From Heminiphilus faecis (GTDB lineage: Bacteria > Bacteroidota > Bacteroidia > Bacteroidales > Muribaculaceae), in assembly GCF_008728965.1 (NCBI RefSeq), contig NZ_VSMC01000006.1:62001-126000 (forward strand): DNA of 64,000 nt. The letters run 5' to 3'. The position numbers were made by a program, and so were the translations under genes. Below are positions 7,807-19,116 of the stretch, piece after piece. The notes beneath the pieces are model-generated. The model ran no database searches. It had not been told where the DNA came from and saw nothing but the letters and a program-made list of their open reading frames with translations. The stretch's first letter is position 1; each line of letters opens with the position of its first letter.

Positions 7807-7907
7807 TATCAGTTTTTCATGGTATTAGATTTAAGGTAAAAAGATTATTCGTCGTGATGACGAGTAATTTTTTTTTGCCCTTGTACAATTATCAAAACTT
7901 TCATATG

Positions 7908-13870: not shown

Positions 13871-15964
13871 ATGACAATCTTTAAATCAATCGTGCCGGCG
13901 GTACTCACAATTATTCTTCCCGCCACCACCACCGCACAAGAGGTGACCGACACCATCGCTGTACATGAACTCAATGAAGTCGTTGTTAAGGCTCCTAAAG
14001 TTATACGCAAGGCGGACATGGATGTGTATTATCCTTCGCAAAGCGCAGTAGAAAATTCACACAACGGCATGCAACTTCTGACCAACCTTATGATTCCCTC
14101 CCTGACGGTAACAGACGCACTCGGAACCATAAAAGCCGCAGGGCAGTCGGTGCAAGTACGTATAAACGGGCGTGAGGCATCTGTCGAGCAAGTGAAGTCT
14201 CTGCTCCCTTCAACAGTTAAACGCGTCGAGTGGATTGACAATCCCGGGGTGCGTTATAACGGGGCAAGCTATGTACTGAACTTCATCGTAGCTAATCCTA
14301 CACTCGGAGGCTCTCTGCAAGCAGAAGGACGTCAAGCCATGAATACTGCTTGGGGTGACTACTTCGTTGACGGCAAATTCAACAACGGGCGTTCGCAATT
14401 TGAAGTCGGCGCCCTGTTCAAGTTAACCGACAAGGTTAAATCACACAGAGATTATAACGAGACATTCAGATATCCCGACGGCAATTCTCTGACAAGAACA
14501 GAATCACCTATCGGAGGCCATGTAGATAACACCTTCGGTCGCTTATGGAGTTCATATAGTTATATAAAGCCCGACACCACAATATGCTATATTGAAGCGA
14601 GTGTCGACCCGAAATTTTCCGACAATCTAATGTCAAAAGGCCTCTTATCGCTCAGTGACGGGACTGAAGACATAATACTTACTGAATCAGTCGGCAGCAA
14701 GGGCACAACTCCAAAGTTATCGGCGTATCTCGAGCATCATTTATCCAACAAGCAGACAATAGTTGTTGACTTCAACAGCTCTTTTTACTTCGGACGTTCA
14801 TATTCAACTTATCTCGAGCAAAAAGCTGCCGGCGATCAACAGAGAGAACATCTCACGTCAATCGACACCGAAATCAAAGACCGCAATCAGGCTTATGCCA
14901 TAGAGGCAAATTATATAAAGCAATGGCGTAATTCGCGCTTGACGGCAGGAGCATCCTATACAGCCAACCGAAACCGTTCGGTATATGAAAATCTTGGAGG
15001 CCAGATTTTTCATCAACGACAAGATAAAGCATACTTTTTTACCGAGTATTTCCAACGGGTCAATAAAGTGACACTGACTGCCGGCATCGGAGCCCAATAC
15101 ACCGACTATCTGTTCAAAGAGACCAATCAAGGCAATCATTCATGGAATCTTCGACCACAAGCTACAATATCATACCGCCTTAATCAAGCCCATCAGTTTC
15201 GGTTAAGTTTTCAATCATGGCAGTCAACACCTTCGCTTGCCGAGTCAAATGTTACTCCCCAACAGATAGACGGCTTCCAATGGCGTATAGGAAATACGAA
15301 TTTGAAAACCGCAAGTTCGTATATGCTGACATTACGGTATAATTTCAATATACCGCATGTTGCCGGAACATTCGGAGTTCGCGCCTTTACAAGTCCGGAT
15401 GCCATCACGCCTTATCTTTACTGGAATGAAAACAAGCTGATCACTTCATATGAAAACAGCCGAGGCTTGCAGAATCTTACATTTTTCTTATCACCGCAAA
15501 TAGAGATTATTCCCGATTGGTTGATGGCAAGCGGACATATACAGTACCGTATTGAGCGCATGAGAGGAAGCGACTACAGACTTCATAACCGCAATTGGAG
15601 CGGCAATGTCAACATCATGCTCGCGCATTGGGGATTTGAACTTGTAGGGCAATACGTACGTGCCCAACACGAACTTTGGGGCGAAAAGATCAGTTGGGGC
15701 GAAAATCTATCAATCGTACAGTTATCCTACAATTGGAAGAATTGGCAGTTCGGTGCCGGTGTGATCATGCCATTCGGCAAATATGACCAAGGGTCAAAAA
15801 TGCTTAGCAAATGGAATACAAACGAACAGCACACGCGTCTTGACATGAGAATGCCTTACGTAAGCATCAGCTACAATATCCAGTGGGGGCGACAAAAACG
15901 CGGAGCGCAAAAACTCATAAACGCGGATGCCAATGTGAATACATCTACGGCAGGCGGCAGATAA
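13871..15964 (+). CDS. Outer-membrane beta-barrel protein, TonB-receptor-like
   Basis: About 697 residues from ATG 13871 with a signal peptide (MTIFKSIVPAVLTIILPATTTAQ). A plug-like segment (ELNEVVVKAPKVIRKADMDV ... VQVRINGREASVEQVKSLLP ... VKRVEWIDNPGVRY) is followed by a long run of amphipathic beta strands rich in Y, W, N and Q up to the C-terminus. It fits the 'outer membrane beta-barrel' family of Bacteroidetes related to TonB-dependent receptors but short for a SusC. No SusD partner is present, so it is not a classic polysaccharide utilisation locus. It follows a TPR/LuxR sensor gene that may control it. The substrate is unknown. Confidence 0.85.
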   Translation: MTIFKSIVPAVLTIILPATTTAQEVTDTIAVHELNEVVVKAPKVIRKADMDVYYPSQSAVENSHNGMQLLTNLMIPSLTVTDALGTIKAAGQSVQVRINGREASVEQVKSLLPSTVKRVEWIDNPGVRYNGASYVLNFIVANPTLGGSLQAEGRQAMNTAWGDYFVDGKFNNGRSQFEVGALFKLTDKVKSHRDYNETFRYPDGNSLTRTESPIGGHVDNTFGRLWSSYSYIKPDTTICYIEASVDPKFSDNLMSKGLLSLSDGTEDIILTESVGSKGTTPKLSAYLEHHLSNKQTIVVDFNSSFYFGRSYSTYLEQKAAGDQQREHLTSIDTEIKDRNQAYAIEANYIKQWRNSRLTAGASYTANRNRSVYENLGGQIFHQRQDKAYFFTEYFQRVNKVTLTAGIGAQYTDYLFKETNQGNHSWNLRPQATISYRLNQAHQFRLSFQSWQSTPSLAESNVTPQQIDGFQWRIGNTNLKTASSYMLTLRYNFNIPHVAGTFGVRAFTSPDAITPYLYWNENKLITSYENSRGLQNLTFFLSPQIEIIPDWLMASGHIQYRIERMRGSDYRLHNRNWSGNVNIMLAHWGFELVGQYVRAQHELWGEKISWGENLSIVQLSYNWKNWQFGAGVIMPFGKYDQGSKMLSKWNTNEQHTRLDMRMPYVSISYNIQWGRQKRGAQKLINADANVNTSTAGGR

Positions 15965-16039
15965 CTTGCAGTTGGCCTGACCGTATACGTACTCTCGCTA
16001 AAAGTAGCTGAATTTTACGTCAGCTCCTGATATATTTAT

Positions 16040-16047
16040 TATCTTTG
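16040..16047 (+). promoter_or_regulatory. -7 element of the riboswitch promoter
   Basis: TATCTTTG followed by GCAG, with TTTTAC about 21 bases upstream as a weak -33. A start near 16051 would begin the transcript at the first stem of the cobalamin aptamer, showing the riboswitch has its own promoter and is not just the tail of the upstream gene. Confidence 0.65.
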
Positions 16048-16049
16048 CA

Positions 16050-16240
16050 GTGCGGATAGGTTGGCGGTCGGTTTTCATCCGACGGTCATTAAAAGGGAAC
16101 GGGGTGAGAATCCCCGACAGTCCCGCTGCTGTAAGCTCCTGCAATATAATTGCCGGCAATCTCCGCCACTGGATATTTATATCCGGGAAGGCGTCGGTAA
16201 TTGGAGTAAGTCAGAAGACCTGCCTTTCCGCAGGGTGACA
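16050..16240 (+). ncRNA. Cobalamin riboswitch (B12 aptamer), orphan
   Basis: The aptamer core is clear. AAAAGGGAACGGGGTGAGAA and the following GACAGTCCCGCTGCTGTAAG cover 16090-16135, then GCCACTGG and CCGGGAAGGCG, and finally the B12 box AAGTCAGAAGACCTGCC at 16208-16224. All conserved blocks are in family order and spacing, so the aptamer looks intact. What is odd is that no plus-strand gene follows. The next 190 bases hold hairpins, then the 3' end of malQ, which runs toward it. The RNA may control a non-coding transcript, or be left over from a lost B12 transport gene. The B12-dependent reductase gene nrdJ lies 3 kb away on the opposite strand. Confidence 0.93.
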
Positions 16241-16251
16241 CCATTGTGTTC

Positions 16252-16299
16252 GTGGGATAACGCAGTCACTGCCTCCTTTTCATTTCCCACTTCTTTTTT
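16252..16299 (+). terminator. Terminator-like expression platform of the cobalamin riboswitch
   Basis: GTGGGA (16252-16257) can pair with TCCCAC (16285-16290), with GCAG/CTGC pairing inside. TTCTTTTTTC follows directly. This suggests transcription control: bound B12 would favour termination here. Confidence 0.6.
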
Positions 16300-16375
16300 C
16301 ACGCTTGTGAAAGCGTGCCATAGTCTGATTAAAGGCTTGTAGCACTGAACAAGCCTATGGTTTAAGAAAAATGAA
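16300..16375 (+). other. Structured leader without ORF downstream of the riboswitch
   Basis: Two further hairpins follow the terminator: CACGCTT-GTGA-AAGCGTG (16300-16317, a GNRA tetraloop) and GGCTTGT ... ACAAGCC (16334-16355). No start codon with a credible reading frame is seen. If read-through occurs, this would be the body of a small structured RNA of roughly 350 bases. Confidence 0.5.
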
Positions 16376-16407
16376 GCGTTCCGGGCTAAGTGATTAGGCC
16401 GGAACGC
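16376..16407. terminator. Hairpin between the riboswitch transcript and malQ
   Basis: GCGTTCCGG (16376-16384) pairs with CCGGAACGC (16399-16407), extended by CTA/TAG across one mismatch, with a 6-base loop. On the minus strand it is followed by CTTCATTTTTC and would terminate malQ. On the plus strand there is only a weak T-run, but it may still end the riboswitch RNA. Confidence 0.7.
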
Positions 16408-16437
16408 ACTTTATATACAGTATATAATAGCCAGTTA

Positions 16438-19116
16438 TCAGCGGCCGGTAGAGCGTATCTTATCGCGCAGATAGCCATTGAACTCCGAAGCACTCAAAAG
16501 CTCCTCGACGGTAAGGTGCATACGATAACGCCAGTAATGACGCGGATTGGCCGGTATGTTGATCAGCTCGTCATGAGGATTCTCACGACGCAGGATGCCG
16601 TTTATCGACAACCAGTCCTGAAGCGGGAATATGGCCAACATAGAGGGTGACTGAAGATTGAGCGTGATTATCTTGTCGCACACCCACGGTTCGGCATAAC
16701 GGGGCGCCGCGCCGCTTTCATGAAGCATATTGTTGTAATAATGCTGGGTAACGTCGCGATTCTCCTCCCACCACTGACGTATGCCTCCCATGTCATGGGT
16801 CGAAGTCGTACATACCGACAGATAAGGATAGGTCCACGTATTGCCGAATTCTGCGGCCGGGTCCTTGGGCATACGCTGTATCTCAAGCGACAGCATCTGC
16901 AGCTCGCTCATGACGGCAGGCACACAATCGGGTATCATACCGAGGTCCTCGGCACATGTGAGCATAGTTGTCGAGTCAATAAGCGGAGGCAACTTCCACA
17001 TAGCCTTGCCATACCAGAAATCATTATGACGGTGATAGTAAAAATCGTTGTACAGACGGTTGAAACACCAGCGCTCGTAGTCAGTCAACGAACGGTATAT
17101 GTAAGTGAACTGAGCCGAGATACGCGGATGATATTTACCCTTTTCATACGGGTCCTCGATAAAGAGCACCTCATCAACGAGCCCCATAAGCGCTTTACAG
17201 AGCCTGTCATTTTTATCACACTTCTCCTCACCGGCAAAGTAGTCGACTATCTTGCGCTGGGTGTCAAACTCAGGACGCAACTTAAACCGACCGTAGCCAA
17301 CGCTTATAAGGAACCGCCGTTTAGCCTCATCAGTAAACTCACCGAAGAAGTCGTAAAGGAAATAGTCCATAATAAAAGGCGTAGTCTGCAGATCGATATC
17401 AAGCCAGAAATCATAATTATTACGCAGTTCGTCGGGAGTATATGGCAAAGCCGGATTAAATATGCCGAGCAGCCCGTGCACAGCATCCATAGGTATCTGC
17501 CATATACGGAAGAAACCGAGCACATGGTCTATACGGTAAGCATCAAAGTATTCCGACATCTTGCGGAAGCGGGCTTTCCACCACGCAAATCCGTCCTTGC
17601 TCATCTCCTCCCAATTGTAGGTCGGCAATCCCCAGTTTTGGCCCAGTACAGAGAAGTCATCGGGCGGAGCACCTGCCTGACAGTCAAGATTAAATAAACG
17701 CGGATTTATCCACGCATCAGCCGAGTCACGCGATATGCCGATAGGTATATCGCCCTTGAAAGCCACACCATGCTCACCGGCATAGCGATGTACTTCACGC
17801 ATCTGCTTGTCAAGATGGTATTGTATATAGTACACATAGTCTATGTCGGTACGGTTGTCCTCTACAAACCGTTCGATCTTATCAGCGTCATAGACAGCAT
17901 ATTCACCCCACCGGTCAAACTGCGCCGTACCGTTTTTGTCACGCAACAGACAGAAAGCCGCATAAGGCTTCAGCCACGACTCGTTGTTGTTGACAAACTC
18001 CTTAAACTCAAGAGTACCGAGTGTCTTGGCACCCTCCTGCTTGAAAATTTCGCGGGTAAACTCGTTTTTGGCATTGTTTACACGCTCGTAATCGACTGCC
18101 GGCAGAGCATTAAGTTCCTTTGCAAGGTCGTCGAAATAGCGCTGGCGCCCTTCATCGTCAAGACGTCCGAGTTCGCTAAGACGAAGAAACATAGGATGAA
18201 GCGCAAACGTAGAATTGGCCTTGTACGGATACGAATCTGTCCATGTATGAGTCATCGTGGTGTCGTTGATGGGAAGTATCTGAAGAAACTTCTGTCCGGT
18301 AGCTACAGCCCAGTCCACCATCAGCTTCAGGTCATAGAAGTCGCCGACACCGAAGTCGTCATTGGACCTAACCGAGAATACAGGGATAGCAACACCGGCT
18401 CCACGCCATGAGGGACGCGAATTATTAAGTCTTAATCCGCTTATCACTAAAGCCGAGCTCTTATGCTCCGGTATTATGTTCATGAGTCGATTGTCGCCGT
18501 TCTCCCATGACAGAAGCTGCAGAGTATCCTTTTTCAGAATTACAAATTTATATCTGAAAGGCAGATCAAGCTCCCTAAAATCAATATTGACACTCCACTG
18601 CGGGAAGTTACAGTCATTCATCACCACCGCATGTGAAGGATCCCACTCGCCAAGTGCCATATTGTCACCGCATATGGCAAGCACCTCGTCAGATCCTACC
18701 ATCGGAGCATCTACATTTATGGTCAATGTACCGCCATGTATCGACAATGGCGCGTCACGATGATCGCGGCGGTTAATACAATCAACAAACACCGACGAAT
18801 AGTAAGGCTTGTCATAAGGCTGTTCCTGCCACCGGTCATAGATTTCAAATGTATTTACATCATATCCCGGAACAAAACGATGAGCGCAGCCCCATTCATG
18901 GCGCACATACCCGTTATCATGACGTACCAAGTAACGGTAGTCAAAGGCGGGAGTACCTTCGGGCACATCGACCGACAAAGTCCACAAACCCACTCCGTCG
19001 AGTTCCATTTTGACGGCACTACCCTCGTCACCGCCACCCAGCTGCGGGATAGAGGCCACGATATATACCGACTCGCCCCAATTGGTACGATAGTCAATAT
19101 TGAAGTTCAGCTTCAT
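16438..19116 (-). CDS. malQ: 4-alpha-glucanotransferase (GH77) with two N-terminal starch-binding domains
   Basis: 892 residues, no signal peptide. Two CBM20-like domains occupy about 1-110 (SVYIVASIPQLGG ... LWTLSVDVPEG) and 125-230 (EVLAICGDNMALGEWDP). The GH77 barrel follows, with SNDDFGVGDFYDL, the nucleophile region YRIDHVLGFF (near 527), the acid/base glutamate in CAEDLGMIP (near 722) and the third carboxylate in TSTHDMGG (near 773). It moves alpha-1,4-glucan segments between chains in cytoplasmic maltodextrin and glycogen metabolism. The CBM20-GH77 layout resembles the plant DPE2 and Bacteroidetes enzymes. A strong terminator separates it from nrdJ upstream, so it probably has its own promoter. 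Confidence 0.95.
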   Translation of the reverse strand: MKLNFNIDYRTNWGESVYIVASIPQLGGGDEGSAVKMELDGVGLWTLSVDVPEGTPAFDYRYLVRHDNGYVRHEWGCAHRFVPGYDVNTFEIYDRWQEQPYDKPYYSSVFVDCINRRDHRDAPLSIHGGTLTINVDAPMVGSDEVLAICGDNMALGEWDPSHAVVMNDCNFPQWSVNIDFRELDLPFRYKFVILKKDTLQLLSWENGDNRLMNIIPEHKSSALVISGLRLNNSRPSWRGAGVAIPVFSVRSNDDFGVGDFYDLKLMVDWAVATGQKFLQILPINDTTMTHTWTDSYPYKANSTFALHPMFLRLSELGRLDDEGRQRYFDDLAKELNALPAVDYERVNNAKNEFTREIFKQEGAKTLGTLEFKEFVNNNESWLKPYAAFCLLRDKNGTAQFDRWGEYAVYDADKIERFVEDNRTDIDYVYYIQYHLDKQMREVHRYAGEHGVAFKGDIPIGISRDSADAWINPRLFNLDCQAGAPPDDFSVLGQNWGLPTYNWEEMSKDGFAWWKARFRKMSEYFDAYRIDHVLGFFRIWQIPMDAVHGLLGIFNPALPYTPDELRNNYDFWLDIDLQTTPFIMDYFLYDFFGEFTDEAKRRFLISVGYGRFKLRPEFDTQRKIVDYFAGEEKCDKNDRLCKALMGLVDEVLFIEDPYEKGKYHPRISAQFTYIYRSLTDYERWCFNRLYNDFYYHRHNDFWYGKAMWKLPPLIDSTTMLTCAEDLGMIPDCVPAVMSELQMLSLEIQRMPKDPAAEFGNTWTYPYLSVCTTSTHDMGGIRQWWEENRDVTQHYYNNMLHESGAAPRYAEPWVCDKIITLNLQSPSMLAIFPLQDWLSINGILRRENPHDELINIPANPRHYWRYRMHLTVEELLSASEFNGYLRDKIRSTGR

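Follow-up and report, generated by a model that had tools for sequence, protein, structure and literature searches.

The window (the whole 64,000-nt stretch of Heminiphilus faecis DNA analyzed here) probably encodes a stand-alone, structured ncRNA, roughly 355 nt long and under the control of a B12 riboswitch, as judged from its sequence and that of a counterpart in a congeneric species. The interpretation of the locus as an orphan cobalamin riboswitch fused to a structured RNA, put forward earlier in a sequence-only reading, is supported by the score of the aptamer, by the lack of a downstream gene in two species, and by hairpins that covary between them.

The aptamer and its genomic setting

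The aptamer is found at 16041–16241 (+), in a genome of 3.05 Mb and 91 contigs, and matches the cobalamin riboswitch family RF00174 with 106.8 bits (E 9.6e-26) against a gathering score of 31.5. The B12 box, AAGTCAGAAGACCTGCC, could be read directly at 16208–16224 (+) and in the RF00174 alignment, in agreement with the earlier description of the aptamer as intact; score and box together place it in the family, with cobalamin binding as a predicted property. The L5 loop carries the segment UCCCGC (16121–16126, +), which is identical in the congener and complementary, with one G-U pair, to the GUGGGA (16252–16257) of the L13 loop CGUGGGAU; this complementarity is kept in both species. The L13 loop belongs to the P13 stem AUUGUGUU/AACGCAGU (16243–16266, +), read from the sequence. 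The start of the aptamer coincides with TATCTTTG (16040–16047, +), a predicted −7 element that fits the Bacteroidota type TAnnTTTG and agrees with the claim that the RNA has its own promoter. The congener has TAATTTTG at the matching position, and other aptamers in the family are also overlapped at their start by a −7 element, e.g. ATAACTTTG before a btuB riboswitch. The genome holds one further cobalamin riboswitch, which precedes a gene for a btuB-like receptor, and no others.

Among open reading frames of at least 60 aa, no + strand gene was found after the aptamer and before malQ: the frames present are two of 62 and 93 aa inside or overlapping the aptamer, and one of 86 aa antisense to malQ. 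The malQ gene (16438–19116, −), identified from the ORF list and a family match as a GH77 4-alpha-glucanotransferase, is convergent and lies outside the RNA system, and the ORF list agrees with the original observation that no + strand gene precedes its 3' end. The DNA downstream of 75 other cobalamin riboswitches, mostly from the same family, was checked for a long co-directional ORF. Such an ORF followed in 71/75 cases, one aptamer was located at a contig end, and three were orphans; the orphan state is thus unusual, applying to a few per cent of aptamers. One of the three is the counterpart in the congener (G012), and the other two (G013:C93 and G028:C2) lack the 3' domain described below, a related version of which is common only to G012 and the source genome of the window (G000).

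The orphan in G013 (L117, G013:C93:6254–6455, −), from the same genus, has a convergent gene downstream and a strong intrinsic terminator, ACTCCCGTATGC...GCATACGGGAGTTTTTT, the 5' arm of which complements L13, and no domain resembling the hairpins H1–H3 reported here. The orphan in G028 (L148, G028:C2:179091–179268, −) is convergent with an outer-membrane-protein-like gene, the likely homologue of which in G000 is found directly upstream of the btuB riboswitch; this arrangement suggests that a gene was lost or a local segment inverted. A further aptamer (L120, G014:C72:4461–4668, +) has the L13 CGUGGGAUA as in the RNA reported here, and is followed by a structured leader of about 390 nt and then by a 380-aa ORF.

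Structure and conservation of the 3' domain

Three hairpins are predicted on the + strand downstream of the aptamer. H1 (16300–16317) has 7 bp and a GUGA loop. H2 (16319–16373) contains a conserved internal loop and an invariant inner helix of 7 bp, with the consensus CAUAGUCURAUY ... AGGCUUG ... CAAGCCU ... GGUUUNAGRAAAAUG. H3 (16376–16407) comprises 9 bp, a 1x1 mismatch and CUAA-GUGA-UUAG. All hairpins noted earlier, including the final one, were recovered in the predicted folds, with the correction that two of them and not one have a GNRA loop (H1 and H3, both GUGA). The GUGA loop of H3 might contact a putative CU:AG receptor in the invariant H2 helix. The region 16298–16410 folds with −48.3 kcal/mol (z = −6.4 against dinucleotide shuffles), and the single-sequence fold in G012 has z = −3.7. 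A search of 15800–16700 (+) against Rfam at a permissive threshold returned RF00174 only, with no match for the 3' domain. H3 is the probable 3' end of the RNA, with a weak U tail on the + strand, and on the opposite strand it may plausibly serve as the malQ terminator.

A DNA search with the region matched one place in G012 twice, once with the aptamer and once with 16350–16419. The unit found there (C1:421.5–421.9 kb, −) has the same order of parts and measures 375 nt from promoter to last hairpin, compared to 368 nt in the window; the unit is single copy. In both genomes it comes after dusB and a pair of GIN-domain (DUF2807) genes, on the same strand, and the two units are therefore orthologous and not a coincidence. 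The gene between the GIN-domain genes and the unit differs, being a flippase in G012 and a LuxR-domain protein plus a 712-aa protein in the window. The window segment 11960–15964, encoding these two, appears to be a gene replacement at the locus: the 712-aa protein has no Pfam match, and several relatives share the polysaccharide flippase of G012. The G012 unit is also an orphan: it is followed by a convergent gene, the final one of a SusCD-type operon, to which a terminator-like hairpin of its own, separate from the unit, belongs. The malQ gene of G012 is found at 692–695 kb, with the reductase gene adjoining and no aptamer there.

Neutral divergence between the two species is near saturation: the malQ products are 82% identical, and the four-fold-degenerate sites of the gene are 39% identical (312 sites). 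The 150 nt before the promoter align with a score of −19 (shuffles −20.9 ± 6.2) and the 150 nt after H3 with −10 (shuffles −16.6 ± 5.7), both within about 1.2 sd of shuffles; the aptamer (138/176 identities) and H1–H3 (85/104) are both approximately 10–15 sd above them. In a hand alignment of the two species, all 37 base pairs of H1–H3 are kept, with 25 unchanged, four changed on one side, eight changed on both and none broken, and under random substitution at the same positions zero broken pairs occur in about 1 in 100,000 trials (~1e-5). H1 is the clearest case: six of its seven pairs are changed on both sides in G012 and all still pair. H3 has two double compensatory changes, one G-U change and an identical 12-nt apex, CUAAGUGAUUAG. 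Conservation also extends beyond pairing, to the internal-loop region of H2 (CAUAGUCU/AGRAAAAUG), its inner helix AGGCUUG/CAAGCCU and the H3 apex. RNAalifold recovered H1, the H2 core and H3 unaided, with a consensus of −44.0 kcal/mol compared to −8.7 ± 2.7 for conservation-preserving column shuffles (z = −13, reached by 0/500); this z-score depends on a structural alignment adjusted by hand, as MAFFT misplaced H1 and H2 by at least one base. The case for conservation is one pairwise comparison of two sequences, with an alignment partly hand-fitted to structure, and within it the check proposed with the sequence-only reading, namely whether 16300–16407 is conserved and covaries in a related genome, was positive in G012.

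These data bear on several other explanations. The locus could produce an ordinary riboswitch transcript in which H2 and H3 form a constitutive (bidirectional) terminator for malQ or its counterpart, with no functional RNA. H3 is indeed followed on the opposite strand by TTCATTTTTCTT, just after malQ, but in G012 it is found apart from the convergent gene with its own hairpin, and a terminator has no need of an identical apex, an invariant H2 helix with an internal loop, or a covarying H1; we regard this explanation as improbable. The earlier suggestion of a relic, i.e. a decaying leader that has lost its regulated gene (e.g. for a btuB-type receptor), would fit the fluid gene content around the locus (the flippase of G012 against the LuxR-like gene and 712-aa protein of G000) and the other orphan-looking aptamers of the family (G013:C93 and G028:C2). 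It is largely refuted by the covariation, since the aptamer and the three 3' hairpins have survived near-saturated divergence with compensatory changes and all 37 pairs intact. Furthermore, the gene is absent in both species and the 30 nt that separate H3 from malQ are too short for a gene remnant, leaving a relic quite improbable.

A cis-antisense RNA acting on malQ or, via read-through, on nrdJ had likewise been considered. Both genes are convergent and downstream, and nrdJ encodes by family a class II ribonucleotide reductase, a B12-dependent enzyme class, in a genome without the class I small subunit. Such a role is nevertheless very unlikely, as malQ is 270 kb away in G012, where an unrelated gene stands opposite the RNA, and in the window conservation of the RNA ends at 16407, 30 nt before the malQ stop at 16438; the conserved overlap with an opposite-strand gene expected from the layout of the Listeria RNA AspocR was not found. 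It is hardly credible that the locus serves to make a tiny leader peptide from the ATG at 16371 (MKRSGLSD*), which an A-rich stretch precedes: AGRAAAAUG is conserved and the ATG kept in G012 (MRVLRSK*), but the two peptides are unrelated and their frames are shifted with respect to the conserved H3 apex, H2 pairs the AUG with CAU, and the H3 changes track pairing and not codons.

The distribution of the structured RNA was assessed with a covariance model of the 3' domain (R1), run on 397 family genomes and a sample of 393 order genomes. Convincing matches among the family genomes were limited to G000 and G012 (83 and 105 bits), with weak matches of 28–36 bits in five further genomes, and the order genomes gave G000 only. 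A blastn-type search of 297 family genomes for wider homologues returned nothing beyond these two, and a pattern scan of GTDB contigs gave ten scattered matches, mostly from other phyla. Viral contigs held no matches to the RNA, and plasmids and phages matched the aptamer only. In a malQ tree G012 groups with G008 (81/90 support) and G000 is placed outside, and the 3' domain had no match in G008; the RNA was probably lost in G008, or else the malQ gene tree misleads.

The expression platform and the direction of the switch

The expression platform (16252–16299, +) pairs the L13 segment GUGGGA (16252–16257) with a downstream complement, the anti-L13 UCCCAC (16285–16290), with a predicted pair probability of approximately 0.97 in both species. 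The L13 loop and the anti-L13 UUCCCAC are identical in G000 and G012 and the intervening DNA is not conserved; the P13 stem differs, with pairing still possible. The pattern CCTGCC-N-CGTGGGAT-N-TTCCCAC occurs in 2/397 family genomes (G000 and G012), and the reversed control gave none. In the window, the conserved UUCCCAC (ending at 16290) is followed by UUCUUUUUU, with TTCTTTTTT at 16291–16299, and in G012 by UAAUUCGCUUUUCU, which has no clean U-run. The platform had been described as terminator-like, which is fair given the predicted pairing, but an actual terminator here is only putative: a consensus scan, which does not accommodate a loop of this length, called no intrinsic terminator at 16252–16299.

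The L5–L13 kissing loop is a contact formed on ligand binding. As L13 can pair either with L5 or with the anti-L13, it has two mutually exclusive partners, and this arrangement is kept in both species, with a good U-run in the window only. About a dozen relatives have a strong terminator whose 5' arm contains the L13 complement, a design that predicts B12-OFF control. In the window the U-run follows the L13/anti-L13 helix itself, an order that predicts B12-ON, and the model suggests that B12 switches the RNA on, a direction we favor only slightly because the U-run in G012 is poor. An RNA-seq study that included Bacteroides data has reported transcriptional cobalamin riboswitches in Gram-negative bacteria (PMC12121620).

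Proposed mechanism and relation to known RNAs

Transcription would start just after TATCTTTG. Without B12, the GUGGGA of L13 would pair with UUCCCAC; in the window, transcription would then stop at the U-run that follows, leaving a short RNA of some 245 nt. When B12 is present, L13 would dock on L5, the platform helix would not form, and the polymerase would read through into H1–H3. The hairpins may then act in trans. Binding to a protein or another structured partner is likelier than antisense pairing, because conservation is seen in stems, in an internal loop and in an apex capped by GUGA, and not in a free seed. The longest unpaired stretches (the H2 loop and the U-run) have no sequence conservation, an argument against a base-pairing seed and in favor of folded parts being recognized. 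A possible though still doubtful extension is that the RNA represents a new class of B12-induced (ON) regulatory RNA in Bacteroidota, where the aptamer would gate H1–H3, a compact folded domain that would bind a protein or other partner in trans and couple B12 supply to other genes without leading any mRNA.

Duplex energies between the 3' domain and translation starts did not single out MetH- and mutase-type genes as antisense targets (ranks 53/71, 45/71 and 29/71 in G000; 21/37, 32/37 and 34/37 in G012), in a calculation that ignores accessibility and is weak evidence. MetE was rejected as a trans-target: a search with the N-terminal part of the riboswitch-linked MetE-like protein of G008 gave no match in either G000 or G012. 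G000 encodes two enzymes with a B12-binding domain, of MetH and mutase size, together with a class II-type reductase, and the class I RNR small subunit is absent. Given the reductase beside malQ and the MetH- and mutase-size enzymes, B12 would be a cofactor of central importance.

EutX from Enterococcus faecalis is a B12-riboswitch-controlled ncRNA that sequesters EutV. In Rli55 from Listeria monocytogenes, a B12 riboswitch decides transcription of an EutV-binding domain, and the ncRNA sequesters the antiterminator EutV (PMC8079631). The RNA reported here has the same layout, with a 5' cobalamin aptamer followed by conserved structured hairpins and no ORF, and with B12 proposed to decide the long form. 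In contrast to these RNAs, it is found in another phylum, its neighbors are not eut genes, and its platform suggests ON control, whereas the long form of Rli55 and EutX is made when B12 is absent. Dual ANTAR hairpins with hexanucleotide loops were not found in the predicted folds, where H1 and H3 have GUGA tetraloops in the window and H2 has a large variable loop. By analogy, the nearest known logic would be that of Rli55, with the RNA reported here as a variant of riboswitch-controlled ncRNA.

AspocR, a B12-riboswitch-controlled antisense RNA to pocR in Listeria (PMC8079631), is similar in that the aptamer controls a non-coding transcript with a convergent gene downstream, but the conserved part of our RNA ends before that gene, which varies between species. 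The standard cobalamin riboswitches of the family, found with btuB-like, lipoprotein and MetE-like genes, share the aptamer class, promoter placement and L5–L13 arrangement but precede genes, and about a dozen have the OFF design. Non-coding RNAs are also known in Bacteroidota from the FopS/GibS-type sRNAs of Bacteroides (RF04319), FopS being an RbpB-associated multicopy sRNA family (PMC11697453). FopS consists of a single-stranded 5' seed and a terminator, whereas the present RNA has an aptamer, a folded 3' domain and no evident seed. The window itself contains an RF04319 FopS match at 7810–7877 (+), with 62 bits against a cut-off of 56. This match to a Bacteroidota family, together with a Bacteroidales SRP RNA in another genome of the family, points to the Bacteroidales as the order of G000.

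Metabolite-controlled ncRNAs without an attached mRNA are known from a few Firmicutes, and the best-studied of them either work as antisense RNAs or sequester a single antiterminator. A conserved Bacteroidota example, whose folded effector domain differs from theirs and whose logic may be inverted, would point to more than one origin for the combination of riboswitch and ncRNA, and B12-dependent trans-regulation would become testable in gut-type Bacteroidales.
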